Assembly (NCBI RefSeq): GCF_008326425.1 | Contig: NZ_AP018929.1 | Span: forward strand, 758,875 to 822,874 | Length of the DNA stretch: 64,000 bases | Reading direction: 5' to 3' | Origin: Sulfuracidifex tepidarius | GTDB taxonomy: Archaea; Thermoproteota; Thermoprotei_A; Sulfolobales; Sulfolobaceae | In this document: positions 6,295 through 27,312 of the stretch, in pieces | How the letters are laid out: each line of letters starts with the position of its first letter | How positions within the stretch are numbered: the stretch's first letter is position 1 | The notes under the pieces: generated by a model | Seen by the model: only the letters and a program-made list of their open reading frames with translations | Database searches by the model: none | What the model was told of the DNA's origin: nothing | Position numbers and translations under genes: made by a program

Positions 6295-6324
6295 ATATAA
6301 GAATGGTAGCTTCAGAATTAAAAT

Positions 6325-6927
6325 ATGAAGAGTTTACTTCTGCTTTCTGGGGGAATGGACTCTTCCTCCGCCGCTTTCATGCTCAGGAAGAGGAACGAAG
6401 TTGATGCAATGTTCTTCAATTACGGGCAGAAGTCGTTCAGACAGCAAAGGAAGGCTGTAAGGAAGGTAACCGAGACGCTTGGAATGAACATGATAGAAGT
6501 AGACGTCAGTGGACTGGGAGACGTGTTTTCAAGGGGAGAGTGGATGAAACCTCATGAACCGATAAAGCATAGAAACGTTATTCTTCTTTCCACTGCCATC
6601 ACTTACGCTTCAGAGAAGGGATATGATGAGGTTGTGCTGGCAACTGTAAATGAGGACTGCGAGTACGAGCCCAACAAACCGTATATTTTGAGGGAATTCA
6701 GGTCCTTAGGTGAGGTCATGAAGGTTAACGTATCTACTCCTTTCGTTAAGTTGAGTAAGTCCATGGTGCTCAGGATAGGGGTGAACAATGGAATGGATCC
6801 ATCCATCACTTATTCGTGTATGTTAGGTCACGAGAAACACTGCGGTAAATGCTCCCAATGTGAGCACAGAAGACTGGCCTTCATTGGGGCTGGAATTAAG
6901 GACCCCACCCAGTACATGAGCATGTAG
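6325..6927 (+). CDS. QueC-like 7-cyano-7-deazaguanine synthase family protein
   Basis: The N-terminus has the PP-loop LLLSGGMDSSSAAF, and the C-terminus has a zinc site CGKCSQCEHRRLAF, the order found in QueC. QueC makes preQ0 from 7-carboxy-7-deazaguanine with ATP and ammonia; in archaea preQ0 is the precursor of archaeosine in tRNA. Length (200 aa) is slightly short of the family norm, and no other queuosine/archaeosine gene is adjacent, so a related PP-loop enzyme is possible. It starts at an ATG about 25 nt after AT-rich sequence. Confidence 0.8.
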   Translation: MKSLLLLSGGMDSSSAAFMLRKRNEVDAMFFNYGQKSFRQQRKAVRKVTETLGMNMIEVDVSGLGDVFSRGEWMKPHEPIKHRNVILLSTAITYASEKGYDEVVLATVNEDCEYEPNKPYILREFRSLGEVMKVNVSTPFVKLSKSMVLRIGVNNGMDPSITYSCMLGHEKHCGKCSQCEHRRLAFIGAGIKDPTQYMSM

Positions 6928-7125
6928 AATACTTACACTCATGATAGACGAGGAGAAAAACAAGAGTAGTATAAAAAGAAGGGATTACTTCCTTCTTTAC
7001 CTTCCTTCATCATCCTTCCTTTATCTCTGTTATTTCTTTTTATTGGATAATTTTATGTATATTCGAGAAAATATGATCGAATCCGATTACTTCTCCTATA
7101 CCTTGCCTCAGGCCTTTGGATAATG

Positions 7126-7614
7126 TCAGATTACTCTGAGGACCTTCAATGCCCTTTCCATGTCGTTCAGTTCATCTATCACGAACGTCGGAGAATACCT
7201 ATCACATCGCTCCCCTCTGTTTACACATAAGACCCTTACCCTGGAATCATAAAACCTGCTTGAAAGCAAGTCCAGTGGCGAGGAACCTAAAGACACCACG
7301 TCTAGCGGATCCCATCCGCTGACTTCAAACAATCTCTTGTAAGGCTCGATTGACGGTTTTGTTTTACCGCTGTTTGAGATCACGAATGAAGGACGCAATC
7401 TTGCTATCTCCACTAGTTTCCCTGTATCTTCCTCAGAGAAAGGAGATAGTATTGCCATGTCTCTTTCATATTTCCTCAGCACACCGTAGTCTGGATGTAA
7501 CTCAGCACTAGGAGGGGAGGGAATTTCCCTGGAGCCGTTCTTGTATATCTCATACAACTTCTCATCTAACTTTATCCTGTAAATCACTCCGTCCAACCAG
7601 ACAGCTAATTTCAA
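7126..7614 (-). CDS. HAD-like protein with degenerate motif I
   Basis: The fold is suggested by VWLDGVIY at the N-terminus, FVISNSGKTKPS in the middle and DVVSLGSSPLDL later, which align with HAD motifs I, II/III and IV. The usual DxD of motif I reads WLD, so the nucleophile is missing or shifted and phosphatase activity is doubtful. The protein is 162 aa. It diverges from the lipoyl-carrier gene at 7669 and shares its AT-rich spacer. Role unknown. Confidence 0.6.
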   Translation of the reverse strand: MKLAVWLDGVIYRIKLDEKLYEIYKNGSREIPSPPSAELHPDYGVLRKYERDMAILSPFSEEDTGKLVEIARLRPSFVISNSGKTKPSIEPYKRLFEVSGWDPLDVVSLGSSPLDLLSSRFYDSRVRVLCVNRGERCDRYSPTFVIDELNDMERALKVLRVI

Positions 7615-7668
7615 GGTTACTTAATTTTAAAAATTAAAATTTATAAACTTTGAGAGCGAAAGTCGTCT

Positions 7669-8103
7669 GTGAAGGTAGGTAATTTCTCGTTCCCGGACGA
7701 TCTACTTTACGACACAGAGAAACACGTGTGGATCAAGGTAGAAGGAAACGTGGTAACCGTTGGGATAACCGACATTGGGCAGTACATAGCGGGGAAAATA
7801 TTTCAGGTAACCGTGAAGGAAGTCAACGAAAAGGTGAACCCGAGGTCAAACTTGTTCACCCTCGAGAGCGCAAAGTGGATAGGAAAGTTCAGGCTACCTC
7901 TGGACGGTGAGGTCATAGACACGAACAAAGAGGTAGTAGACGACCCGTCAAAGATAAACAAGGATCCTTACTCAGCGTGGATAGTGAAAGTCAAGGTATC
8001 GAACCCTGAACAAGTCAAATCCAAATTTAAGGACATAAAGGCTTCATTACCCGACTTTGAGAGGGAGGCATCTAGACTTGTCAGAGAAGCAAGTAGTGCT
8101 TAA
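7669..8103 (+). CDS. Lipoyl carrier protein, GcvH/LbpA-like
   Basis: The product (144 aa) is a GcvH-type lipoyl domain; the lipoylated lysine should be K69 in LFTLESAKWIGKF. GcvH serves glycine cleavage, while the related LbpA serves the sHdr sulfur-oxidation complex. Lipoate ligase, LipS pair and TusA lie nearby and no glycine-cleavage P or T gene is visible, so LbpA is favoured, as inference. A TATA box (TTTATAAAC) about 26 nt before the GTG start indicates a leaderless mRNA. The following small gene overlaps its end. Confidence 0.8.
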   Translation: MKVGNFSFPDDLLYDTEKHVWIKVEGNVVTVGITDIGQYIAGKIFQVTVKEVNEKVNPRSNLFTLESAKWIGKFRLPLDGEVIDTNKEVVDDPSKINKDPYSAWIVKVKVSNPEQVKSKFKDIKASLPDFEREASRLVREASSA

Positions 8104-8401
8104 CGCAATAGAGGGATACAAGTTTGACGTGATGCTTGCGGGGATCATGGACGACTCTCTCCTAATTGTGTCAAAGAAAGAGACACCTCACTTCTATGAA
8201 GAAAATGGCAAAAAATACACGATAATTCACTATTACCCAGACGATTACATCAACCTCCTCTTACAAGGCAAGGAAGAAGAGGTGTTCAGACCTTTTCACG
8301 TTTACTATTTCGTTAAGGTCTACATGAGGAAGGTCCTCGACGTTTTAGCCTCAGTGGAAGTAGCCAGGATGGCGGACGAATACGGCAAAAATCAGCCGTA
8401 A
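8078..8401 (+). CDS. Hypothetical protein following the lipoyl carrier gene
   Basis: About 107 residues from a TTG at 8078, overlapping the end of the carrier gene by 26 bp; a GTG at 8096 or a TTG at 8057 are other possible starts. The sequence is alpha/beta in character (EGYKFDVMLAGIMDDSLLIV and a FHVYYFVKVYMRKVLDVL helix), with no cysteine or membrane segment. No family is recognised. Overlap with the lipoyl carrier gene implies co-expression and perhaps interaction with it. Its 3' end overlaps the convergent zinc mini-gene by 10 bp. Confidence 0.65.
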   Translation: MSEKQVVLNAIEGYKFDVMLAGIMDDSLLIVSKKETPHFYEENGKKYTIIHYYPDDYINLLLQGKEEEVFRPFHVYYFVKVYMRKVLDVLASVEVARMADEYGKNQP

Positions 8402-8568
8402 TGTGCCCTCGTCTTCCTGAGCCAATCGCGGAAGCACTTCCTGGAACAGAAGAGATTCACCCTCCCATTTATCATGATTATCACTTCAGCGTAATCAACT
8501 TGAATGCCACAATTAGAACATTCACCAAAAGAAGGAATTGAAAATATTTGCCTTGAACGTTTTGACAC
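8392..8568 (-). CDS. TRASH/YHS-like zinc mini-protein (58 aa)
   Basis: Translation from GTG at 8568 gives 58 residues with the pattern CSNC at residues 17-20 and NLFCSRKCFRDWL near residues 38-50, the four-cysteine spacing of TRASH-type metal-binding domains. A stop codon lies just upstream in frame, so GTG is the earliest start. It follows the winged-helix regulator gene (stop at 8591) by 22 bp on the same strand, so the two are probably one operon. That pairing of a regulator with a metal-binding mini-protein suggests a metal or sulfur sensor, as inference. Confidence 0.7.
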   Translation of the reverse strand: MSKRSRQIFSIPSFGECSNCGIQVDYAEVIIMINGRVNLFCSRKCFRDWLRKTRAHYG

Positions 8569-8590
8569 TTGAAAAGATTAGCTTTCGAGG

Positions 8591-8965
8591 TTAAATAGCT
8601 ACCGTCATTGTCTTCTGTATAGAGTTCTTCAGCGTGGTCAACAGTTTCTCCAGGTCTACGTCGAGTCTATTGTAAAGCCTCTCTCTGTCTACCCAATACA
8701 TGAAGTTAGGTCTACCTTTCCTCTTGTCCTCGGACTGCACTTTCTCCCTCTCTACAAGTCCCTTGTCTATCAAACTGTTCAGGGACTTGCTTATAGACGC
8801 TTTCGTCACGTTCAGTTTAGAAGCTATATCGTCAGTTGTCATTTTGCCTTCAGTCATCAACATGTGAAGGAGTTCCACGTCGCTCTTGGATAGTCCGTAC
8901 ATGAAGGCTATGAACTCGTGTATATCTACTTCTCTTCCGTCTGGGAACTTTATCTTTTCAGCCAT
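8591..8965 (-). CDS. Winged-helix transcriptional regulator, paralog 3
   Basis: This 124-residue protein has helix-turn-helix LNVTKASISKSLNSLIDKG near residues 52-70 and wing RKGRPNFMYWV, closely matching the paralogs at 4325 and 5498. The start region has a TATA-like TTTATTAAAG about 25 nt upstream. It is followed by the zinc mini-gene. Upstream, a 200-bp AT-rich spacer with repeated GTTAATGA boxes separates it from another HTH gene. Confidence 0.8.
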   Translation of the reverse strand: MAEKIKFPDGREVDIHEFIAFMYGLSKSDVELLHMLMTEGKMTTDDIASKLNVTKASISKSLNSLIDKGLVEREKVQSEDKRKGRPNFMYWVDRERLYNRLDVDLEKLLTTLKNSIQKTMTVAI

Positions 8966-9079
8966 TCCTTTTCACTAATACTTTAATAAACTTCCTAGCT
9001 TAAATAAAGGATATATACTAAGTTATACTAATGTACACAAATGTATTTCATAAAGGCTTACTTAACCTATATTAACTGT

Positions 9080-9106
9080 GTTAATGACCTTTAACAGGGT
9101 TAATGA
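9080..9106. promoter_or_regulatory. Direct repeat GTTAATGA, two copies 19 bp apart
   Basis: Copies start at 9080 and 9099, with further TTAAC/TTAAT half-sites at 9062-9075 and 9090-9096. They lie in the spacer between two divergent regulator genes. Spacing of nearly two helical turns suits a regulator binding site, but no binding is shown. Confidence 0.4.
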
Positions 9107-9172
9107 GATTATTATATAAAAAATAGAGATAAATATAATAAAGTCACTAAAGAAATGAGGTTGTAGAAAACT

Positions 9173-9502
9173 TTGAGGAACTTTACTCTCAAATGTGAGG
9201 AATCATACTATAAGATAGTCCCTCCTCTAAGGGTAGCCCTTGTTGACAAGCTAGTAGAGAAGGGTATGTCTGTGACTAAAGCTTCTAGGGTAGCTGGGAT
9301 ATCTGTAGTTACATATGAGAAAAATAAAAAGAAATTCGAGAAGGAGGTAGCTCTACTTAAGGGAAATGAGGAGATGAACGAGATGCTTGAGATCACTTCA
9401 GCTAAATACATGAACAAGGTAGATGAGGGGCCTTTCTGCGTAATGTGTAGCGTAGCCAGACTCGTTTTGAAACTGGACAAGTGCGAAAAAGTTAATAGAT
9501 GA
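9173..9502 (+). CDS. HTH transcriptional regulator with C-terminal CxxC
   Basis: The 109-residue product has a helix-turn-helix at about residues 22-45 (EKGMSVTKASRVAGISVVTYEK), an XRE-like arrangement, and a CVMC pair near residue 84 that could bind a metal or act as a redox switch. The start is TTG; no better start lies upstream. The MFS transporter begins 19 bp after its stop, so the two are probably co-transcribed and the regulator may control transport. Confidence 0.7.
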   Translation: MRNFTLKCEESYYKIVPPLRVALVDKLVEKGMSVTKASRVAGISVVTYEKNKKKFEKEVALLKGNEEMNEMLEITSAKYMNKVDEGPFCVMCSVARLVLKLDKCEKVNR

Positions 9503-9521
9503 ATTCGCAGCTTAACATGAA

Positions 9522-10643
9522 TTGAAGAGAGTAGCGATACTCTTTATATGTTCTGCGTCCTTCTTCATGTCCTACTTTTCCAGGCTAGTGTGGAGCATAG
9601 TATCAAGCTTCTCTACCCTGAAGCCGACTGAGGTAGAGGACGGAATCATCTTTTCCCTGTTCTTCGTGGGATATGTGATCATACAGATACCATCAGGAAC
9701 GGTCGTAGACAAGATAGGGTCTAGGAAAGTTCTAGTTGGTGCTCTTTTAGGTCTGGGATTGTCGGCTTTCGGCTCGGCTATGTCACCGTCAATATCTTGG
9801 GAATACGTAAATAGCGTGGTTATGGGTCTATCGGCTGGATGGATCTACCCAACTACAATAAAGTTGTTGGCGACAAACTTCGCTGGCAAATCCTTGCACC
9901 AATCAATAGCGCTGTACAGCTTAGCATGGCCCCTATCGATAGTAGCCTCAGGTTTCGTGATACCTCCTCTAGCTACACTGGACTGGGAGTTACCTTATTT
10001 CCTGCTGGGGGCAATGTCTTTAGCTCTGTCTTTCCTTTCAAGCAAGCTCGTCGGAGATGACGCTGGACACCATGATGGAAAGGGAATCTCCGTTGTGAGA
10101 GATAAGAGAGTCATCTCCATTTCAATAGGCGGTTTCATGTTCTTCTTCTCGTACTGGAGTTTGACCCTCTTCCTCTACAAGTTCCTCCTAGCTTCAGGGT
10201 ACTCTCCGATAATAGCTGGGGTGGTTTACTCTTTCACCGCGATAGCCGGAATACCGTCCACCGTTTTATCAGGTAGAATCCTCGACTTGATAGGGACAAG
10301 GAAATCGTTACTGTTGTTCATAGGCGTTTACGGTATCCTTATCCTCTCCATAGACGCGGTATACAGGTTCCTCATCCCCCTCTCCCTGGTATTCATCTCC
10401 ATGGGCTTCGTGAGGTTCATCATCACTCCATCGCACTCAAGTGCCTTAGCGTTTCTGGGTGGAAAGAACAGCGGAAGTGTATCCGGTTTCGCCAACTTCT
10501 TCTGGCAGTTCAGCGGGATTGTGAGTTCCGTAGTTTCACCGCTAATAGTGGAGGCAATGAGCTACACATCCTTATGGTTATTGATAGGGACAATAACATT
10601 GTCTTCTCTGTTTTTCTATTCTATGGTAAGAATCAATGACTGA
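9522..10643 (+). CDS. MFS transporter
   Basis: The protein (373 aa) has twelve predicted hydrophobic segments and the MFS loop motif GTVVDKIGSRKVLV between segments 2 and 3, with a weaker copy GRILDLIGTRKSLL in the second half. This marks a plasma-membrane secondary transporter. The substrate cannot be told. It starts at TTG 19 bp after the HTH gene. Confidence 0.8.
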   Translation: MKRVAILFICSASFFMSYFSRLVWSIVSSFSTLKPTEVEDGIIFSLFFVGYVIIQIPSGTVVDKIGSRKVLVGALLGLGLSAFGSAMSPSISWEYVNSVVMGLSAGWIYPTTIKLLATNFAGKSLHQSIALYSLAWPLSIVASGFVIPPLATLDWELPYFLLGAMSLALSFLSSKLVGDDAGHHDGKGISVVRDKRVISISIGGFMFFFSYWSLTLFLYKFLLASGYSPIIAGVVYSFTAIAGIPSTVLSGRILDLIGTRKSLLLFIGVYGILILSIDAVYRFLIPLSLVFISMGFVRFIITPSHSSALAFLGGKNSGSVSGFANFFWQFSGIVSSVVSPLIVEAMSYTSLWLLIGTITLSSLFFYSMVRIND

Positions 10644-16002: not shown

Positions 16003-16958
16003 GACATCTCACCTAAAATTTTCAATACGTGGAATCTCTTGTTCTCATCCATTATTAACACACCTGCCGATAGGTGATGATACCTGCTTGAAAAAACAGT
16101 TATTACTTTGCCATCCATTTCTACTGAGAAAGCATCCTTAACCTCATGAGCCCTTATTATCCCTTTTAAGCTATTGGAATTGAGGAAGTCCTCCACAGCC
16201 TTTTTGCCAAAATAGAACGTACCCTCCCCTCTCACGTTAGGTATGAAATCGTCTATGCACTCCCTCGGATCATTCCAAAGCAACTGCATGGCGACCGGGT
16301 TTGATGGTTCCACGTCTCCTCTGGGGAGTTCATTTATCTGACTCAAATTCTTCATTTGTGGAGCTATAGACTCGCTGCTTTCGTCCTTTGCTATCCCGCC
16401 GTGTACGCAGAAATATCCGTTCACTGACGCCGCGTAAGGCATGTATGAAAACAATCTCTGGAACTCCTCATAAGGGAAGTCCTTGGCTTTCTCGGAGAGT
16501 TCGTTGAAGAAACCGTAGTGGTAGTTAGTCAAAGGACTTTCATGGTTACCCCTGAGCACTACCATTTTCCCCTTTGACTCGTGATCCTCCAGCATTTCCC
16601 TCAAAATCAGCACTAAGTTCTCTAAGCTCATCTCTCCCCTGTCAACGTAATCACCGAGGAAGACTATTTTCCCCACGCTGTCGTCATGAAGGAAGTTGAG
16701 AAGAGTGTAGAGAGCCACGTCGAAGGCTCCGTGGGTATCTCCTACAAAGACTACCTTCTTGTCCGTCTCAATACTTCCTAGATAATTAGTCTGAGACTCG
16801 AAAATGGACGTGGACTCCTCCAAGAGTTTATGAAGTAAATCCTGATTTGAAATTATCTCTCTAACTGCATCTAAAGCTTTCTGTGATTCCTCTTCATGTT
16901 CCTTCAGGAAGGTTGATGTCTTGACTTCTTCTACCTCGGGCGTCAGGACTTCCTCCAT
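15999..16958 (-). CDS. PP2A-type Ser/Thr protein phosphatase
   Basis: The PPP-family metal-binding motifs appear in order: GDTHG, GDYVDRG and RGNHE, then a CVHGG segment and a late histidine in RAHEV. These enzymes dephosphorylate Ser/Thr with two metal ions. The protein (319 aa) has about 65 extra N-terminal helical residues before the catalytic core. It sits between the FHA gene and a VWA gene with start/stop overlaps, so phospho-threonines on the VWA tails are the likely substrates. In S. acidocaldarius PP2A affects archaellum expression. Confidence 0.9.
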   Translation of the reverse strand: MEEVLTPEVEEVKTSTFLKEHEEESQKALDAVREIISNQDLLHKLLEESTSIFESQTNYLGSIETDKKVVFVGDTHGAFDVALYTLLNFLHDDSVGKIVFLGDYVDRGEMSLENLVLILREMLEDHESKGKMVVLRGNHESPLTNYHYGFFNELSEKAKDFPYEEFQRLFSYMPYAASVNGYFCVHGGIAKDESSESIAPQMKNLSQINELPRGDVEPSNPVAMQLLWNDPRECIDDFIPNVRGEGTFYFGKKAVEDFLNSNSLKGIIRAHEVKDAFSVEMDGKVITVFSSRYHHLSAGVLIMDENKRFHVLKILGEMS

Positions 16959-17647
16959 TAATCCTTCACTACTTTTACCACTGTGTTGTTAGCAAGCTTC
17001 AGAACTGAGTTTGGCTGTATCTCAACTTTCCCCTTAACTGGTTGGAACATCTTTCCGTCGTATATGTATGTTCCGTTAGTACTGTTGAGGTCCTCTATCT
17101 CGAGCTTGCCGTTCTCGTAATAGATAATTGCATGTTTCCTGGATACTTCTGGATCTGGAATTACTATGACGTTCTCTGGACTCCTACCAAGAGATATTGA
17201 AGGGAAAACGTCAAATTCCAAGGGTATCTTGGTCTTGTTGAACTGAGGGTTCGGAGTGTTTATGAACTGAATGTAGTACTTTTGAGCTTCCTGTCCTGCC
17301 GGTGATGGCTCCTGAGGTGCTGAAACTTGCGCTGGCTCCGGCGAAGCTTCCAGTTGTGCAGGTTGTGTTGGAACTGTAGCAGGTTCGTTCTTCACTTCCT
17401 CAGCTTGCATTGAAGCTTCTGGTTGCCCTTGAGGTGCAACGCTTCCTGCTTGTGACGTCACCTGTACTGACGTGCTTCCGTCTTGCGATACTACTTGTTG
17501 CGCCTCTGCAGGTTGGGCAGTAGGTTCAGGGGTCGGCATTGACGTTGACTGTGTAGTCAAGGATTCAGGTTTCTTAGCTCCACACTTTGTACAAAAATTA
17601 GCGTCATCAAGGTTTTCGTTTCCACAAAATGGACATTTCCATGTCAT
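16958..17647 (-). CDS. arnA: Zinc-ribbon FHA-domain protein (ArnA-like)
   Basis: From the ATG at 17647 (229 aa): a zinc ribbon CPFC...CTKC in the first 25 residues, a linker of about 100 residues rich in Pro, Gln, Thr and Ala, then a C-terminal FHA domain with GRSPEN, SRKHAII and NSTNGTYIY. FHA domains bind phosphothreonine. This order matches ArnA, the archaellum repressor of S. acidocaldarius. A reading frame extends to a TTG at 17710, but the TATA box (TTTTTAAGT, about 30 nt before 17647) supports the ATG. Archaellum genes are not in the window. Confidence 0.85.
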   Translation of the reverse strand: MTWKCPFCGNENLDDANFCTKCGAKKPESLTTQSTSMPTPEPTAQPAEAQQVVSQDGSTSVQVTSQAGSVAPQGQPEASMQAEEVKNEPATVPTQPAQLEASPEPAQVSAPQEPSPAGQEAQKYYIQFINTPNPQFNKTKIPLEFDVFPSISLGRSPENVIVIPDPEVSRKHAIIYYENGKLEIEDLNSTNGTYIYDGKMFQPVKGKVEIQPNSVLKLANNTVVKVVKD

Positions 17648-17709
17648 GTTTGTATAATAGCTTGTAAAATACTTAAAAATTTCTGTCCATAGTATACTCC
17701 TAGATAACA
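17648..17709. promoter_or_regulatory. Divergent promoter between arnA-like and arnB-like genes
   Basis: Only 62 bp separate the two starts. A nearly symmetric AT block around 17669-17681 (ACTTAAAAATTT) reads as a TATA-like element on both strands, about 30 nt from each start codon. A single region may thus serve both genes and keep FHA and VWA partners balanced. Leaderless transcription is inferred from spacing. Confidence 0.55.
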
Positions 17710-18789
17710 ATGGTAGTTTCTGTTAAGCTAACCCAGTCATACTCGATAGCTTACACCAATAAGCCGACCGAGTCAGGAGTTGTAATTTATATAATACCCG
17801 AATCAGTGACGACTTTGACCAATACCCACTTTGTGATAGCTATCGACAACAGCCCCTCGATGAAGGAGGACAACAAGCTAGACATCTCTATGCAGGCTGC
17901 ACAGAACCTCTTGGCTAGTCTACCGCCTGGAAACCTGGTTACCATAATTTACTTTGCCAACCATCCCCACGTAGTTTACCAAGGGCCTACAGGCCAGCCT
18001 GTTACAATCGAGAGAAAATTTGAGGGTACAACCAGGCTTCATGAAGCACTCAGAGAAATAATCAAGATAACCTCGCAGAACAACACCGCAACTAAGGTAA
18101 TTTTGCTGACAGATGGACAGCCGGTAGACAAGACAAATGTAAAGGATTATCAAGCTCTTCAGTTCCCCCCTTATGTTCAGTTCATATGCCTCGGTGTAGG
18201 TAGGGACTACAACGAAGTTATCCTTAAGACGATAGCGGACAAAACTGGAGGTCTTTTCTTCCACGTGGAGGATCCGAACTCTCTACCAGTTCTCTTTGAA
18301 AGCCAGAGAACTACGAACACAGCTGCATATAATGTGGAAGTGGAGACACCAAGGGACTTCACCCCGTTAAATTACAATTCACCTATAAGGCTCCCGGTGG
18401 TGGAAAACATGGTAGCTATTTACGGTACTTTACTTGTGCCTCCAGGGGATACTCCGTATACGGCAAAGTTCGTGGTAAGGTATGTAGAGCCTGCTGACGG
18501 ACAGCAGAAGGAAATCACAAAGTTCTTAACTTTCAATAGAGGAAACGCTGAACAAGTCATGGGATCAGTAAATGGAAGGGTTCAAGCTGAGATAAGGTAC
18601 TATAGGCTCCTCAGGGAATACGAACAGTCCCTAATGACAGGGAAGGCTGAGAGCACCCGTATAATTCAATCGTTACAGGAAGCCGCGGAGCAGACCAGGA
18701 GAGAGGACTTGATAGAATCTACTAGAAAGTTGAGTGGAGATTCCAAGGTAGACTTATCCGAGGTAACTAGGAAAATGAGGTCTCAGTGA
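17710..18789 (+). CDS. arnB: VWA-domain protein (ArnB-like)
   Basis: The 359-residue protein has a VWA domain with MIDAS motif DNSPSMK near residue 45 and TDGQPVDKTN further on. A beta-rich middle domain and a C-terminal helical tail follow, with Thr-Arg motifs STRII, QTRRED, STRKL and VTRKM. Domain order and divergent pairing with the FHA protein match ArnB, which binds phospho-dependent ArnA and down-regulates archaellum genes. It is a paralog of the protein at 14857-16002, from which it may be distinguished by its shorter tail. Confidence 0.8.
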   Translation: MVVSVKLTQSYSIAYTNKPTESGVVIYIIPESVTTLTNTHFVIAIDNSPSMKEDNKLDISMQAAQNLLASLPPGNLVTIIYFANHPHVVYQGPTGQPVTIERKFEGTTRLHEALREIIKITSQNNTATKVILLTDGQPVDKTNVKDYQALQFPPYVQFICLGVGRDYNEVILKTIADKTGGLFFHVEDPNSLPVLFESQRTTNTAAYNVEVETPRDFTPLNYNSPIRLPVVENMVAIYGTLLVPPGDTPYTAKFVVRYVEPADGQQKEITKFLTFNRGNAEQVMGSVNGRVQAEIRYYRLLREYEQSLMTGKAESTRIIQSLQEAAEQTRREDLIESTRKLSGDSKVDLSEVTRKMRSQ

Positions 18790-20215: not shown

Positions 20216-20572
20216 ATGACTAAAGTAGCTCTACCTGTGACCGGAGACGAGGTTACCGGACCAGGAGAAGGAGAGAAGGTGAAGATTTTTGACGTTGAAA
20301 ACGACCTTATCAAGTTAGTAGAGGAGTATCCTAATCCTGCCCTTCATGCAGTAGCAGCTAGGGGAGCTCACATGTTGAAGTCGGCCTTAGACAAGGGAGC
20401 TCAGGTCTTCTTGGTCACTGAAATGGGGCCCCCAGGAGTCAGGTTACTCCAGGGAAAGGCCAAGGCTTTCCTAGTCGAAGAAGGTACTAAAGTAGACGAC
20501 GCAATTAGGCTCTTTAAGGAAGGAAAATTACAGGAGATAGTTGAGCCCACTCATACCGAAAGACACGGTTAA
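20216..20572 (+). CDS. Dinitrogenase iron-molybdenum cofactor (NifX/NafY) family protein
   Basis: A single small alpha/beta domain of 118 residues: VALPVTGDEVTGPGEGEKV opens the fold and LDKGAQVFLVTEMGPPGV carries the conserved glycine loop of the NifX/NafY/DUF family. Archaeal members outside nitrogen fixers have unknown roles, perhaps binding metal clusters. No nif genes are nearby. The HerA-like ATPase starts 48 bp downstream on the same strand. Confidence 0.7.
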   Translation: MTKVALPVTGDEVTGPGEGEKVKIFDVENDLIKLVEEYPNPALHAVAARGAHMLKSALDKGAQVFLVTEMGPPGVRLLQGKAKAFLVEEGTKVDDAIRLFKEGKLQEIVEPTHTERHG

Positions 20573-20620
20573 AATATCAAGGCAACTCCCTTTTAACTCA
20601 AACCTTTCAAACTTACACCC

Positions 20621-21370
20621 ATGAACATGGGGACATTCTCGCTGAGTAAGGCTGACGTAGCCAGGAAGTGTGTAGCGATCCTTGGAATAAGAGGGTCTGG
20701 AAAGTCCAACACTTCGAAGGTAATGATAGAGGAAGCGATAAAGGAAGGTTTACCGGTCACCGTGATTGACCCTGACGCTGAATACGTGGATTTGGTCAAT
20801 TCCATGGGCGGAGATATTGTAACAGGGAGTGACGATGCATCGCTTAGATCGGAAGTTCATCACAGGAAAGCTATCAGCTCTGTGATAGACATGAGCGAGT
20901 GGAACCAAGAGTCCTTCTCTTTCCTTTACAAGTACTTAACAAACATATGGGAAATGTCTAAGGATCGCAGGACGGATAGAATGATCGTTGTAGAGGAAGC
21001 CCATGAGTTCATACCCCAAGGGAAAGTATCAGGGATATCTGAAATTATAACTAGGCTAGCCCTCAGAGGAAGGAAAAGAGGCATAGGCATAATCCTCATA
21101 AGCCAGAGGTCTGCAAAGGTAAACAAGGACGTTCTGACTCAGAGCGAGATATATATGCTCCACAAAGTAGTACACCCAGCAGACTTGAAGGTCTATAAGG
21201 AAATCCTCCCTTGGAAACCAAAGGAAGTAGATTCAGTAGTCCCCTCGCTGGAAGTAGGTGAGGCTTTGTTCTACAAGGAAGGAAAGACGGAGAAGGTCAA
21301 AATTAGGCAAAGCACATATAACACGCTTCAGTTCAGCCAGTTCAGAGAAGACGCTACAAACATGATCTGA
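20621..21370 (+). CDS. HerA/DUF87-type ATPase (short)
   Basis: Walker A ILGIRGSGKSN near residue 25 and Walker B RMIVVEEAHEF near residue 124 are followed by LALRGRKRGIGIILISQRS, the sensor and arginine-rich region of HerA/TraG-like ATPases. At 249 aa it lacks the N-terminal HAS-barrel of the DNA-repair HerA (about 500 aa) and no NurA is adjacent, so it is a stand-alone helicase/translocase-like ATPase of unknown role. Two close ATGs (20621 and 20627) are possible starts. Confidence 0.8.
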   Translation: MNMGTFSLSKADVARKCVAILGIRGSGKSNTSKVMIEEAIKEGLPVTVIDPDAEYVDLVNSMGGDIVTGSDDASLRSEVHHRKAISSVIDMSEWNQESFSFLYKYLTNIWEMSKDRRTDRMIVVEEAHEFIPQGKVSGISEIITRLALRGRKRGIGIILISQRSAKVNKDVLTQSEIYMLHKVVHPADLKVYKEILPWKPKEVDSVVPSLEVGEALFYKEGKTEKVKIRQSTYNTLQFSQFREDATNMI

Positions 21371-21509: not shown

Positions 21510-22235
21510 TTGATGTTGAAGGCAGTCTTCGTAGACCTTGGAGAAACCTTGGTTGGCTTCAGACCGAGAACTTACGAAATCGTTGCTTCCGTGCTGAAAG
21601 ATTACGGCTATAACATAAGCCCAGTGAAAGTTTATAGGGCTATGATGAGGAGCATGGGAAAGTTCAACTATCCTGACAATGAAGGTAGTAATCCCTTTGA
21701 TTTGAGTGATTTCTCTTACGAGCTTGGAATAGTATCTAGAGAGGTAATCAAGGAGATAAGCGAGAAAGCCAAGTACGGCGACAGCCATTTCCTTTATGAC
21801 GACGCTATCCCTTTCCTGGAGGGAGTTAAGTCCCTCGGTCTCAAGACGATCCTCGTATCGAACGCCACACCGAGAGCCAGAACTATAGTGATGGAATACG
21901 GATTGGACAGATACCTCGACTACATGATATTCTCATGTGACGTCGGACTCATAAAGCCGAACCCAAGGATATTTTCTCTAGCTATACAAAAGGGAGGTTT
22001 CCCCTCAGTCCACATTGGAGATATCTACGAAATGGACGTTTTAGGAGCTAGGAGGGCTTTCGTAAAGCCCATCCTGCTTGACAGGTTTGGACTTTACGCA
22101 GAGTTGAAAGAAAGTAAGGTGAGTAACCTCACGGAGGCTCTGAGGGAAATAGAGAGGGAGAATTCGGACTTGGACAAGGCGATACCTACTACTACAACAG
22201 CAAGGACTACTTCCCTTCAAAATACCAACACTTGA
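21510..22235 (+). CDS. HAD-superfamily hydrolase
   Basis: Class I HAD with cap: motif I FVDLGETLVGF (the second Asp of DxD reads as G-E, so DLGET), motif II LVSNAT, motif III lysine in GLIKPNPRIF and motif IV HIGDIYEMDVLGA. It is probably a phosphatase or dehalogenase-like enzyme of unknown substrate (241 aa). Its last 29 bases overlap the end of the convergent ABC ATPase-like gene. The final 15 residues are Thr-rich. Confidence 0.8.
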   Translation: MMLKAVFVDLGETLVGFRPRTYEIVASVLKDYGYNISPVKVYRAMMRSMGKFNYPDNEGSNPFDLSDFSYELGIVSREVIKEISEKAKYGDSHFLYDDAIPFLEGVKSLGLKTILVSNATPRARTIVMEYGLDRYLDYMIFSCDVGLIKPNPRIFSLAIQKGGFPSVHIGDIYEMDVLGARRAFVKPILLDRFGLYAELKESKVSNLTEALREIERENSDLDKAIPTTTTARTTSLQNTNT

Positions 22236-23010
22236 CCCTATTCTCACCTACTCTGAACGTCTTGGGCTTCTCGAGGATGCATTTCCTCCTTAACTTTCTA
22301 TCGGTTTTTGAAAGCTCACAAGAGTCATGAAATGCACAACCGACTTCGGAGAAAACGACTGGACACCTAACTCGGGCTCTTTCCCCTCTTCTTCCTGTAT
22401 CCATTACAGAGTCCATTAGAACCTTGCTGTAAGGGTGATAAAACTCCTTATTTCCATCGCTTTCCTCCATTACTTCGCCATTAGCTCCAACGAACACCTT
22501 GTCGCAGAACCCCACGTATTTGAAGGAAGACATGAAAACCAGTGAATCCCTTCCTATCTTCCTCAGGATTTTATGTATCTGCTTCATTACGAAGATCTTG
22601 AGCGGATCGTCTACCTTTGATAAAAGGTCTCCCACAATGGCTAGCTTCACGTCTCCCAGGAAGAGTGTCGAGACATACACTATTGCTAATTCAGACGTTT
22701 CAATTTCGGTGAGCTTTCTCGACGGATCCACTCCAGATATCAGGATTGACTTATTAACTTGATCTGAGGTCCCGCCGACTCTCGTAGCTATCCTCTTGAG
22801 GAACTCCTCTACTGTAGTAGGGGGCCTCTCTCTGGTATTTGATGGTATGTACCTTATTGTAGCTCTAGGGATCTCATTTCCGTACTGATCTGTGACCTTG
22901 ACTTCAGATTGGACTATTCTCTCGTTTCCCTCTCCAAAGAAACAAGAGATACCGTCTAACTTGAGTTGACCGTAGTAGATCATGTGTCTCACCAAGGGTA
23001 GAGGTGACAT
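22207..23010 (-). CDS. Degenerate oligopeptide-type ABC ATPase (OppF-like)
   Basis: The order of blocks and the C-terminal cysteine cluster (CAFHDSC...C...C) match OppD/OppF ATPases, which end in a similar cysteine motif. The catalytic motifs are lost: the P-loop position reads FFGEGNERIVQ without GK[S/T], the signature LSGGQ reads LTEIE, and the Walker B Glu is absent (LAIVGDLLSK). ATP hydrolysis is unlikely. It overlaps the next ATPase-like gene (22989) and is last in a four-gene transporter operon. Confidence 0.7.
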   Translation of the reverse strand: MSPLPLVRHMIYYGQLKLDGISCFFGEGNERIVQSEVKVTDQYGNEIPRATIRYIPSNTRERPPTTVEEFLKRIATRVGGTSDQVNKSILISGVDPSRKLTEIETSELAIVYVSTLFLGDVKLAIVGDLLSKVDDPLKIFVMKQIHKILRKIGRDSLVFMSSFKYVGFCDKVFVGANGEVMEESDGNKEFYHPYSKVLMDSVMDTGRRGERARVRCPVVFSEVGCAFHDSCELSKTDRKLRRKCILEKPKTFRVGENRVKCWYFEGK

Positions 23011-23852
23011 CTGACGAAGGAGCGACCTACATTGGCTCCTTTAGGTATCTCCTCCTTACATCTGAAGGACGAGAAAGGGCAGGATGAACTGAACTTACAT
23101 CCCCTCCCCGGTAAAGAAGGTCTCAAGTAACCTCCTAAGTAGGCTTGAGTGTAAGGATGTAGAGGAAAGGACAGGACTTCCTCTCCCTCTTCGATTATTT
23201 CTCCCTTGTAAAGTACGACTGTGTAGTCCGCTAGTCTGGAGATCACAGCCGGGTCGTTGTCTAACACGACGAAGGAGGAATCTGTCACGGACTCCATGTC
23301 CAGAAGGGAATTCAGGATAACATTCACTTGCACATCGTTCAGTCCACATCCAATGTCCTCTACGAATATAACCTCAGGGTTCAGGAAGCTCGCTAGGGCT
23401 ATCTCTACCTTCTTAGCTTCCATAGGGTTAAGCTGAAAAGTGTATTTGTCTAAGACTGATGTCTCTAAACCCAGCAACTTAACGTACTCCAAGGCTAGTT
23501 CCTCAGCGTAGTGCTCGTCCCCTAGACCATGAGACATAACTATCTCCACAAAGTGTGATTTTATATCATATAATTCACTGAAGAGCGTGTATGGATCTGA
23601 TGGGATTTCGCTCAACTTTATCCACAAGTAATCCTTGAACTCCTCAGAGGTAACCGACAGCACATCTTCACCGTTAATGTAGAAATGTCCTGTAGAGTTG
23701 ACCAGCCTCATGGAAGCCTTAACCAAGTACTCCTTGTTGCTGTTTCCTTCTCCCAGAATCCCAACGTTACCGTCTATCTGCCTCAGGGAGAAGCACTCCA
23801 ACTTATCCTTCACAGTTAAACAGTCGTATTCAATCATTTCTCTGAGCACCAC
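22989..23852 (-). CDS. Degenerate oligopeptide-type ABC ATPase (OppD-like)
   Basis: OppD-like layout with the C-terminal CKFSSSCPF...C...C motif and HPYTQAYLGG, which is typical of peptide-transporter ATPases. The P-loop reads GILGEGNSNKEY, lacking the invariant GK[S/T]; the signature reads QLNPMEAK; Walker B keeps VIFVEDIG. A partner in the same operon is also degenerate, so neither site looks competent. The pair may be structural or regulatory, or may be energised by another ATPase. Overlap with its neighbours on both sides supports co-translation. Confidence 0.7.
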   Translation of the reverse strand: MVLREMIEYDCLTVKDKLECFSLRQIDGNVGILGEGNSNKEYLVKASMRLVNSTGHFYINGEDVLSVTSEEFKDYLWIKLSEIPSDPYTLFSELYDIKSHFVEIVMSHGLGDEHYAEELALEYVKLLGLETSVLDKYTFQLNPMEAKKVEIALASFLNPEVIFVEDIGCGLNDVQVNVILNSLLDMESVTDSSFVVLDNDPAVISRLADYTVVLYKGEIIEEGEEVLSFPLHPYTQAYLGGYLRPSLPGRGCKFSSSCPFSSFRCKEEIPKGANVGRSFVRCHLYPW

Positions 23853-24603
23853 TAACCATCAAGTAGAGTCCTATAAGGAATATAGCCCTGAAAATAGAAG
23901 GTATAAGGAATATCCACCAAGCATAAAGTATACCGTTCAACCTGCCCGTCACCAGTATCGTGGTAAGGGTAGGGAAGTTTGGATCTCCGACCCCTAGGAC
24001 TCCCATCAAAGTGTAAACGCTTGCCCCGTCAACCATTCCGTTCAAGAAGCTGATCAAAGTAGTCTTCCTTATTTTCGTCAGGGATAGCTTGAACTTTTCC
24101 ATGAACGTTTCATAGAATTGAGGAAATGAGTACGTCGAAGGAGTGACCAACTCTCCTATTTGTCTCGCCAAGTTCCCCCAGCCTGTAAAAGAAATTATTA
24201 AAATGGAAAATATTATCGGTGTAGCTAGCACGTAACCGCGAGGATGGCCGAAGAAGAGGGCTAAGGAAAGTACAAGCGGACCGCGAGGGATTATAGTTAT
24301 TGCGTCTGGTATCCTAGCTAACATATGCCTCATCTTACCCTTCATGAGACCTACTAACATTCCGTAAGGCAAACCAACAACTATCTCAATGAAACCTACC
24401 GCTATAGCAACTATCAGGGTGTTCAGGAGGGCTAAAGCGTTCTCGTTTATCATGTTGTCCCCGTTTATGTAAGTACCTAAAGGGTAGCTTAATGAAGGGG
24501 ATGAGAGCGGAGATCCAGAGGGTAAGCTCACCACTGAGAAAAAGAAGGACAACACAAGCGAGACCGAAGTAATGATTGCACCCGCCTTGAATGTCAAGTT
24601 CAT
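23830..24603 (-). CDS. Peptide-type ABC transporter permease (DppC-like)
   Basis: About six hydrophobic segments with the conserved cytoplasmic loop of binding-protein-dependent permeases (segment following GNLARQIGEL). It is a plasma-membrane transporter subunit of 257 aa, the DppC position in gene order. Its 5' end overlaps the DppB-like gene by ATGA and its 3' end overlaps the first ATPase-like gene. No substrate-binding protein gene is adjacent. Confidence 0.75.
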   Translation of the reverse strand: MNLTFKAGAIITSVSLVLSFFFSVVSLPSGSPLSSPSLSYPLGTYINGDNMINENALALLNTLIVAIAVGFIEIVVGLPYGMLVGLMKGKMRHMLARIPDAITIIPRGPLVLSLALFFGHPRGYVLATPIIFSILIISFTGWGNLARQIGELVTPSTYSFPQFYETFMEKFKLSLTKIRKTTLISFLNGMVDGASVYTLMGVLGVGDPNFPTLTTILVTGRLNGILYAWWIFLIPSIFRAIFLIGLYLMVSGAQRND

Positions 24604-25844
24604 CTTCTCACCCTCACCCTAGGGTCAAACAAACCGTAAACCAGATCAGAGATCAGGTTAGATACTGCTATTATTACAGTATAGAGTAGAAAAATACCCT
24701 CCAAGACAAGGTAGTCCCCGTGAACTACTGCTTCCCAGCTCAGGAACCCTATTCCGGGTACTGCGAAGGTCACTTCGGTGAAGAAGTCTGAGAGAAGGAA
24801 CTCTGAGAAGATAGATGAAATGGAGTTGAGGAGGACGACCCCTATCCTCCCGAAAACGTGACGGTAAAGCAAGACCTCAGATGAGAGCCCCTTTATTTCG
24901 TATTTGACGTTCTCGGTAGACCTGAACTTTGAGACTACGTCATACATTCTGTTAGCAGTTATCCCTATGGTTGGGATAACTAGAGACGTTACCGGAAGCA
25001 CAAGATACATGAACAAGGGAGACCCTACACCTCCGCTGGGAAACAGAGGTATACCGTAGTGAAACGCGTATATCAATGATAACCCTATGACCCAGGAGGC
25101 CAAGGAGCTTCCCACGTATTTCCATTCCCTGAATAATGTGGACGGTGTAGATAAGTTCCTCATCGCTATTGCGCTACCAGCGAAAACAGAGAAAGGCATT
25201 GAAATTCCGAGCAAAAGGGAAGTATATCCTAAAGACGTTAAGAGGAGGGAATCGACGCTCACCAGATAGTGCGTGCTTATTCCCCCGTTGAATGTGAAGA
25301 TCCTGAAGAGCGAATGAAACACATTGTTCCCGTGCAGGACTTCTAAAATCAGTATGACAACCACTGTGATTGTTATCACGAGGACTAGGTTAGTCAACCT
25401 CTTCATCACGTAAACGCTCAATGAACCGCTGGGACTTCTGCTCTCAGCTAACTTCCCTATAGCCTTGTACTGAACTAAGTAGAGAAGAGTCTTCAGTCCC
25501 AAAAGGGTTCCGAAGAAGACTGCGAACATGGCGTAAACTGAAAGGTAAGCGTAAGGCTGAACGTACCCCTCAATAGAGTAAACATAGAAAGACGTCGAAT
25601 TCAGCTTTACCGGACCTATCTGAGAAACGTTCTCCTTTTCCCCGTTTACGAAAAGTACTGGATGTGGAAGACCATGTGTCAGTACAGACCAATATCTGTA
25701 CTGCCAATCTGAAGGGGGAAACGCACAGCTGCCGTATCCGTAGTTTACATCCTTATAAGGTTCGGAAATAATTGAAACATAGGAAAAAAGAATTCCAGAA
25801 AAGAGGAAGGCCAAGCTTATGGCCGCTAGAATGTAAGGGTTCAT
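24600..25844 (-). CDS. Peptide-type ABC transporter permease (DppB-like)
   Basis: The 414-residue protein has an N-terminal membrane segment, an extracytoplasmic domain of about 70 residues with a cysteine, and then a permease domain ending in the DppB-like [17 protein letters not shown] and the C-terminal DLVYGLFDPRVR. It is the first gene of the leftward operon. The long extracellular insert is unusual for DppB and may replace part of the missing substrate-binding protein, which is speculation. Confidence 0.75.
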   Translation of the reverse strand: MNPYILAAISLAFLFSGILFSYVSIISEPYKDVNYGYGSCAFPPSDWQYRYWSVLTHGLPHPVLFVNGEKENVSQIGPVKLNSTSFYVYSIEGYVQPYAYLSVYAMFAVFFGTLLGLKTLLYLVQYKAIGKLAESRSPSGSLSVYVMKRLTNLVLVITITVVVILILEVLHGNNVFHSLFRIFTFNGGISTHYLVSVDSLLLTSLGYTSLLLGISMPFSVFAGSAIAMRNLSTPSTLFREWKYVGSSLASWVIGLSLIYAFHYGIPLFPSGGVGSPLFMYLVLPVTSLVIPTIGITANRMYDVVSKFRSTENVKYEIKGLSSEVLLYRHVFGRIGVVLLNSISSIFSEFLLSDFFTEVTFAVPGIGFLSWEAVVHGDYLVLEGIFLLYTVIIAVSNLISDLVYGLFDPRVRVRR

Positions 25845-26186: not shown

Positions 26187-26930
26187 ATGATGCAAGCGGA
26201 AAAGGAGGAAAAGCAGAAAATAAGGGAAAGGATCTGGAGGATTTTGGAAGAGAACAAGTTAGCTTCGTTTCCCAGACCGGTCTACGGCAGGATACCAAAC
26301 TTTAAGGGGTCTTCTAAGGCTGCAGAGAGGCTCTCGTCACTGGACATCTTCAAGAAGTCTTCGCTAATCAAGGTGAATCCGGATTCCCCTCAAAGCAAAG
26401 TTAGAGAGTTAGTCCTTAGCGCTAAGAAGAAGCTCCTAGTTCCTACTCCGAGGCTTAAGGGCGAATTTTACCTTCTGGACGGAAAGGAAACCGATTCCAG
26501 GAACTTCACCATAAAGGCAATAGCTTCTCACGGCGAGAGAGTTAGGATAGAGAACATAGACAAAGTGGACTTGATAGTAGTGGGGTCAGTAGCTGTTACG
26601 CTAAACGGTGATAGAGTAGGAAAGGGCGAAGGATACAGCGAGCTGGAGTACGCTATCCTCAGGGAGCTCGAGAAGGTAAACGAGAGGACCCCTGTAGTGA
26701 CAACAGTTCATGAAGTCCAGATAGTTGACATGATACCCAGAGAGCCCTTCGATCTCGCTTTAGACGTTATAGTCACACCTGAGAGAACTATCACTGTCCC
26801 TAATGCCAGGAAGCCTGAAGGCCTGCTCCTGGATTACCTAGAAATGGAGAAAGTCGATGAGACCCCATTCCTTAAGGAATATTTAAAGCGTTACCATCCT
26901 AATTACTTCCATGGCAAGGTTTCAAGTTGA
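26187..26930 (+). CDS. 5-formyltetrahydrofolate cyclo-ligase (MTHFS) family protein
   Basis: The family fold is indicated by a basic N-terminal helix with [12 protein letters not shown], the [21 protein letters not shown] loop and the closing [16 protein letters not shown]. Family members bind folate-like substrates and ATP; the archaeal branch is often of unclear function. At 247 aa it is longer than bacterial MTHFS. The end overlaps the SRPBCC gene by 20 bp. Confidence 0.8.
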
Positions 26931-27312
26931 TTATGAACTGAAGTGTGACAGGAACGAGGTTTTGAACAAGTTAAAGGACATCAGATCAATTCCCACGTAC
27001 TGGAAAGGAACCAGGGAACTACAAGTGATCTCTGATGATGGAAAAGTTGCGTACGCTAAGGTCAGGTTCGCTTTCCCCGCTTCGGGTAAGGTGAGAATAA
27101 CTAGGCTGGATGACGGGATCAGGATGGACTACCTTGAAGGACCGTTCACAGGATATCAGGAGACCTTGGTAGGGACAGAGAAGATAGTTTCGACCTGGGA
27201 TGTTAAATTCAACTGGATGTTCAAAATGATGGAGAAAAAGAACGTGGAGCACTTCAAGGAAGGAACTAAACACGCCCTGATGAGATTGCAGGGTATCGAA
27301 GTTCAGCCATGA
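26911..27312 (+). CDS. SRPBCC/START-like ligand-binding protein
   Basis: A 133-residue protein with the beta-rich cradle pattern of the SRPBCC superfamily: an opening [20 protein letters not shown], then IPTYWKGTRELQVI, and a long C-terminal helix (EHFKEGTKHALMRLQG). These proteins bind hydrophobic ligands. Translational overlap with the cyclo-ligase-like gene points to co-expression. Confidence 0.75.
   Translation: MARFQVDYELKCDRNEVLNKLKDIRSIPTYWKGTRELQVISDDGKVAYAKVRFAFPASGKVRITRLDDGIRMDYLEGPFTGYQETLVGTEKIVSTWDVKFNWMFKMMEKKNVEHFKEGTKHALMRLQGIEVQP

Follow-up and report, generated by a model that had tools for sequence, protein, structure and literature searches.

The window, a 64,000-nucleotide stretch of the Sulfuracidifex tepidarius genome, carries an oppB-oppC-oppD-oppF-type unit of four closely packed genes, all on the minus strand, as are the features within them described below. 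The OppB-like permease (24600..25844) has 414 aa and matches the Pfam family BPD_transp_1 at 5.2e-10. The OppC-like permease (23830..24603, 257 aa) is too diverged to match any Pfam family, and the same was found for all 17 members of its own family. The OppD-like pseudo-ATPase (22989..23852) has 287 aa as listed from a GTG start; its orthologs start near the sixth residue of the listed reading frame (MIEYDC). The OppF-like pseudo-ATPase (22207..23010) has 267 aa and may truly begin at its second methionine, near position 22983. The OppD-like and OppF-like reading frames are both open. To judge from profile matches, the two ATPase subunits are weakly recognisable as Opp/Dpp relatives. The OppD-like protein matches DppD and NikD models at 1e-22 to 1e-24, far under the curated cut-offs, and the OppF-like protein matches Opp/Dpp-type models through its second half only. 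Neither window protein matches the Pfam ABC_tran family; 14 of the 17 OppD-like orthologs do.

The initial annotation had claimed that both ATPase subunits lack their catalytic motifs, and this is borne out by an alignment in which the two subunits and their orthologs were set against 37 intact Opp-type NBDs, taken from the Sulfolobaceae and from further families of that order. All 37 intact sequences carry the Walker A GK[S/T], the Q-loop glutamine, the SGG of the signature, the DE of Walker B and the H-loop histidine; the Walker A row is true by construction since the intact set was chosen by its GK[S/T] P-loop, which does not apply to the other rows. The signature Gly-Gly, the catalytic glutamate, the H-loop histidine and the Q-loop glutamine, each present in 37/37 intact sequences, occur in 0/17 OppD-like and 0/17 OppF-like proteins, and the Walker A Ser/Thr is found in 0/17 and 1/17 of the two families. 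The contrast lies far beyond chance. A complete Walker or signature pair is offered by neither dead subunit. In the OppF-like protein, the aligned degenerate Walker A reads GEGNERIV (22912..22935) and the degenerate Walker B reads VKLAIVGD (22627..22650), with the aspartate changed to glycine and the catalytic glutamate to aspartate.

In the OppD-like protein, the degenerate Walker A aligns at 23730..23753 and reads GEGNSNKE. The earlier description of the P-loops as GEGN without GK[S/T] is correct in effect for this subunit, because the lysine is retained and a glutamate stands in place of the Mg-binding Ser/Thr. The GEGN itself is limited to the window's own genus, the OppD-like proteins of other genera having GQRDSGKE or similar. 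The former ATP pocket of the OppD-like protein is conserved in a new form, consisting of K40 (17/17), E41 in place of Ser/Thr (16/17), D166 and N199. D166 replaces the catalytic glutamate in the former Walker B (VIFVED, 23355..23372; 17/17) and N199 replaces the histidine of the former H-loop (DND, 23253..23261; 16/17); E41, D166 and N199 are seen in none of the 37 intact homologs. At the former signature (LNPMEAKK, 23409..23432), K147 and K148 are each kept in 16/17 orthologs and are not found in the intact homologs. The pocket of the OppF-like protein shows no conservation. Two further cysteines of the OppD-like protein, C11 and C20 (23793-23822), lie in the first beta hairpin formed by the first two strands and are kept in 16/17 family members against 0/37 intact homologs; they could form a disulfide or an extra metal site.

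Since the Walker A lysine is retained in 17/17 OppD-like proteins, the subunit may bind a nucleotide without turning it over. The residues K40, E41, D166 and N199, conserved in 16-17 of 17 orthologs, could even constitute an unconventional nucleotide or ligand site, making the complex nucleotide-gated or an unusual enzyme. This is quite improbable, however, as the partner subunit provides no signature motif, its own pocket is not conserved, and a glutamate at the Mg-binding position should disfavour Mg-nucleotide.

In whole-genome searches, 17 of the 31 Sulfolobaceae genomes proved to carry the four-gene unit, and these belong to five genera: the window's own genus (three genomes), g3 (four), g4 (two), g9 (two) and g10 (six). 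The four genes are adjacent in all 17. Named carriers are Metallosphaera javensis, M. yellowstonensis and Candidatus Aramenus sulfurataquae, and the metagenome-assembled genome Sulfolobus sp. UBA167 carries a unit near the window's version. The remaining Sulfolobaceae genera among the 31 genomes, g5 included, did not yield the unit, and neither a search of the class nor a sampled search of the phylum returned orthologous units beyond the 17. In the phylum sample, a gap separates the orthologs (E <=1e-85) from all other matches (E >=2e-53). The three best non-ortholog matches (about 180 bits) have an intact Walker A and signature, and intermediates with half-lost motifs were absent from the 398 sampled phylum genomes. 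In one Metallosphaera-group genome of g10 (G029, locus L037, 10253-11050), the oppF-like gene is inverted with respect to the rest of the unit and has kept its full frame.

The dead D proteins and the dead F proteins each form a single clade, with supports of 0.90 and 0.996, respectively. The degenerate state therefore looks old, with the caution that long branches in the D/F tree leave deeper placement uncertain. The copy of M. yellowstonensis (L046, G019, 6308-9900) is far more diverged along the whole unit and its ATPases are also dead. Within both the D and the F clade it is sister to all others, and it possibly represents a second, older lineage.

Close relatives with intact motifs would have indicated recent decay; when they were sought, the orthologs proved degenerate throughout. 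Purifying selection on each of the four genes is strong, with dN/dS values of 0.03-0.06 in moderately diverged pairs (the window against G001, and two Metallosphaera genomes), the exact values being rough because dS is 1.4-1.9 and thus near saturation. In two close pairs (g4 and g3), where changes are few, dN/dS is 0.07-0.28. Relative to the congener G002, the D, C and B proteins are 75%, 79% and 81% identical and F is the lowest at 54%; neighbouring genes range from roughly 55 to 95%, a range into which D, C and B fall. Recent decay and sequencing artefact are ruled out by the 17 orthologous units and the dN/dS values. A pseudogene cluster in the course of being lost would account for the disappearance of every catalytic motif from both ATPases, but it is hardly credible given full frames in 17 species, dN/dS of 0.03-0.06 and four genes that stay together across genera. 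The suggestion made from the window that selection maintains a role other than that of an ATPase is supported by the low dN/dS, by a degeneracy common to 17 species and by the fixation of the OppD-like pocket in its new form.

The C-terminal cysteine motif of OppD and OppF had been reported as retained, and the four cysteines are indeed present in 34/34 of the dead subunits (17/17 OppD-like, 17/17 OppF-like) as well as in 37/37 intact sequences. In the OppD-like protein, C252, C258, C265 and C282 (C-x5-C-x6-C-x16-C, 23007..23102) have the spacing of E. coli DppF, as checked on the E. coli sequences. In the OppF-like protein, C225, C231, C244 and C261 (C-x5-C-x12-C-x16-C, 22228..22341) differ in the spacing to the third cysteine, which is x10-x12 across the family compared to x6. 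In E. coli, Cys284/290/297/315 of DppD and Cys293/299/306/323 of DppF bind [4Fe-4S] clusters (PMC12136057), and these positions were confirmed on the E. coli sequences. The Fe-S domains are required for assembly of the Dpp complex, which falls apart when the cluster cysteines are mutated or the clusters oxidised (PMC12136057). The spacing and invariance of the cysteines support the earlier idea of a metal-cluster protein insofar as the dead subunits would likewise be expected to bind clusters, the metal itself being a prediction by analogy. The OppF-like family has 12 invariant columns, every one of them within residues 182-262, around the cysteine domain, so the selective weight on this subunit rests on its Fe-S-type end.

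AlphaFold2 models calculated from the family alignments are of good confidence, with pLDDT values of 87.7 (OppD-like) and 83.8 (OppF-like), and with Foldseek both subunits are predicted to adopt the ABC ATPase fold. The best match of the OppD-like model is DppD of Thermoanaerobacter tengcongensis (PDB: 4fwi, E 1.1e-22). The OppF-like model is best matched by E. coli OppF (8z21_D, 2e-12), DppF and DppD 4fwi, placing E. coli DppCDF and OppF among the best solved structural matches of the dead subunits. The protein in 4fwi, an ATPase with an Fe-S domain, is the best or near-best match to both subunits in structure and in sequence; it belongs to an intact catalytic family, whereas the window proteins lack the signature, the catalytic glutamate and the H-loop residues.

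The permeases were initially described as intact, which does not hold: erosion has affected the cytoplasmic coupling (EAA) loops of both, and OppB has been remodelled. In the OppC-like protein (loop at 24049..24171), the EAA-loop glycine present in 18/19 intact homologs is found in 0/17 of the dead family. In the OppB-like protein (24843..24953), the DYIRTAR part is lost or replaced and KGL is kept; the OppC result is the stronger of the two since intact archaeal OppB homologs also vary in this loop. OppB also begins with a family-specific extension of about 147 aa (25404..25844), in which two predicted membrane segments surround an ectodomain, and which has no Pfam match. The membrane segments and outer loops of both permeases are strongly conserved. 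With a topology that is approximate, being derived from hydropathy and an alignment with E. coli, the outward loops of OppC between TM1-TM2 and TM5-TM6 hold 23 invariants in 57 positions compared to 5 in 70 for the inward loops. The TM1-TM2 loop (PPS..YPLGTYING.NMIN, 24430..24525) is invariant at 12/32 positions and the TM5-TM6 loop (GVGDPNFPTLTT, 23920..23994) at 11/25. The OppD-like E103, present in 17/17 orthologs, aligns to E124 of DppF, which contacts the permease DppC (PMC12136057). From this conservation, docking of the OppD-like subunit to the permease is probably kept.

The flanking genes of the unit vary between genera, and among the neighbourhoods of the 17 genomes there is no consistently linked partner gene. 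The idea that a partner ATPase or a binding protein is linked to the unit was considered and rejected, given this variation and recurrent neighbours that point to no function. A DEAD/DEAH-type helicase recurs in Metallosphaera and Aramenus. Upstream of the window unit, at 26187-27312, lie a 5-formyltetrahydrofolate cyclo-ligase family gene and a gene for an SRPBCC-like protein, the latter recurring near the unit in nine genomes. At 20216-21370, a dinitrogenase-cofactor-type protein (PF02579) adjoins a HerA-type (DUF87) ATPase in an order conserved in the two congeners. At 16958-18789, an FHA/zinc-ribbon protein adjoins a VWA protein that carries the ArnB C-terminal domain (PF18677), a pair that looks like the archaellum regulators ArnA and ArnB.

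The conservation of the membrane and outward parts would also fit a passive conduit, in which the permease pair lets a small solute through, as a facilitator or a gated channel, and the pseudo-ATPases form a fixed cytoplasmic gate. This explanation is the main rival, and the loss of the ATP engine together with the coupling loops speaks for it. It is nonetheless unlikely, as alternating-access permeases are normally not open pores and neither a substrate nor the gene context, which changes by genus, indicates a solute.

A search of the genome for the SBP_bac_5 family identified no dedicated binding protein of this family near the unit, in agreement with what had been noted from the window. Both SBP_bac_5 proteins that could be placed in the genome adjoin two intact oppDF operons at 690-706 kb, the SBP_bac_5 matches themselves lying at 697-706 kb, and the unit is at 781-785 kb. 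In some ABC importers, different systems draw on a common ATPase, which would favour the earlier proposal of an ATPase encoded elsewhere, one that would here drive the permeases while the pseudo-ATPases do another job. Such an arrangement is very unlikely: both coupling loops are eroded, the dead NBDs are retained with an invariant putative docking glutamate (E103, aligned to the permease-contacting E124 of DppF; PMC12136057), and no binding protein was found near the unit. The intact oppDF operons of the same genomes suggest another arrangement, in which the dead subunits combine with the cell's intact Opp systems and tune or inhibit them. That Fe-S domains mediate assembly in relatives (PMC12136057) would be in keeping with such a regulatory complex. 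The permeases, however, are kept, and they and the dead subunits are inherited as one unit; the coupling loops are unlike those of the intact systems, so that this possibility is also a minor one, about as improbable as an unconventional nucleotide site.

The window unit resembles the Opp/Dpp importers (E. coli DppBCDF and OppBCDF) in its B-C-D-F gene set and order, in the ABC fold of its ATPase subunits and in a C-terminal four-cysteine domain of equal or similar spacing. It differs from them in the loss of catalytic motifs from both ATPases, the eroded coupling loops, the two-segment N-terminal addition to OppB and the lack of a linked binding protein. The highest-scoring intact relative of its permeases among those compared is an archaeal oppDFBC operon (L071; 87 and 78 bits) in a genome of the same order but a different family; its ATPases retain the GK[S/T], LSGG, DEP and H motifs in full where those of the window are dead. 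Heterodimeric ABC transporters with one degenerate site share the change of the catalytic glutamate to aspartate and an altered signature, and their other site stays active and drives transport (reviewed in PMC7756269). The window unit differs in having lost both sites and in being an importer-type system. No description of a conserved Opp system with both sites dead was found in the open-access literature, an absence that is weak evidence.

From these comparisons we infer that the four genes would encode a heterotetrameric membrane complex that descended from an Opp/Dpp-type peptide importer and is no longer run by ATP. A normal ATP cycle is not expected because the Walker A Ser/Thr, signature, catalytic glutamate, H-loop and Q-loop are all replaced, and because erosion has struck the coupling loops through which the permeases would receive the stroke. 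The pseudo-ATPases, keeping the ABC fold and the Fe-S-type domains, would act as a clamp for assembly, much as Fe-S cluster domains hold the E. coli Dpp complex together (PMC12136057). The conserved elements are the outward permease face, the ectodomain newly gained by OppB, the domains of the Fe-S type and the re-specified OppD-like pocket. The complex may thus be an outward-facing receptor or anchor that is either static or responsive to a ligand, and its cytoplasmic Fe-S pseudo-ATPases may also offer a platform for redox or ligand sensing. Since the motifs are lost in both subunits and yet the unit and its cysteine sites are preserved in 17 species, the job is probably one that needs no ATP.

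The non-ATPase state of the complex is very probable from its sequences. The best explanation overall, an ATP-independent complex held by Fe-S domains and facing outward as a receptor, an anchor or a static conduit, has about an even chance of being right. A receptor or anchor role specifically is plausible and falls somewhat short of that. More tentative again is an ABC system fully without ATP turnover, in which the re-specified pocket of the Fe-S pseudo-ATPases would be a sensing or locking site and the complex an outward-facing receptor or a redox-responsive gate.

The ATPase is what defines an ABC system. An importer-type lineage that has lost catalysis in both ATPases and mechanical coupling in both permeases, and is still under strong selection, would mean that the scaffold is useful by itself. 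With the Fe-S-type domains kept while the ATPase is gone, the unit is a natural separation-of-function case. The authors of the E. coli Dpp study left open whether the Fe-S domains have a further role beyond assembly (PMC12136057), and the dead unit makes it testable whether these domains serve assembly only or have such a further role.
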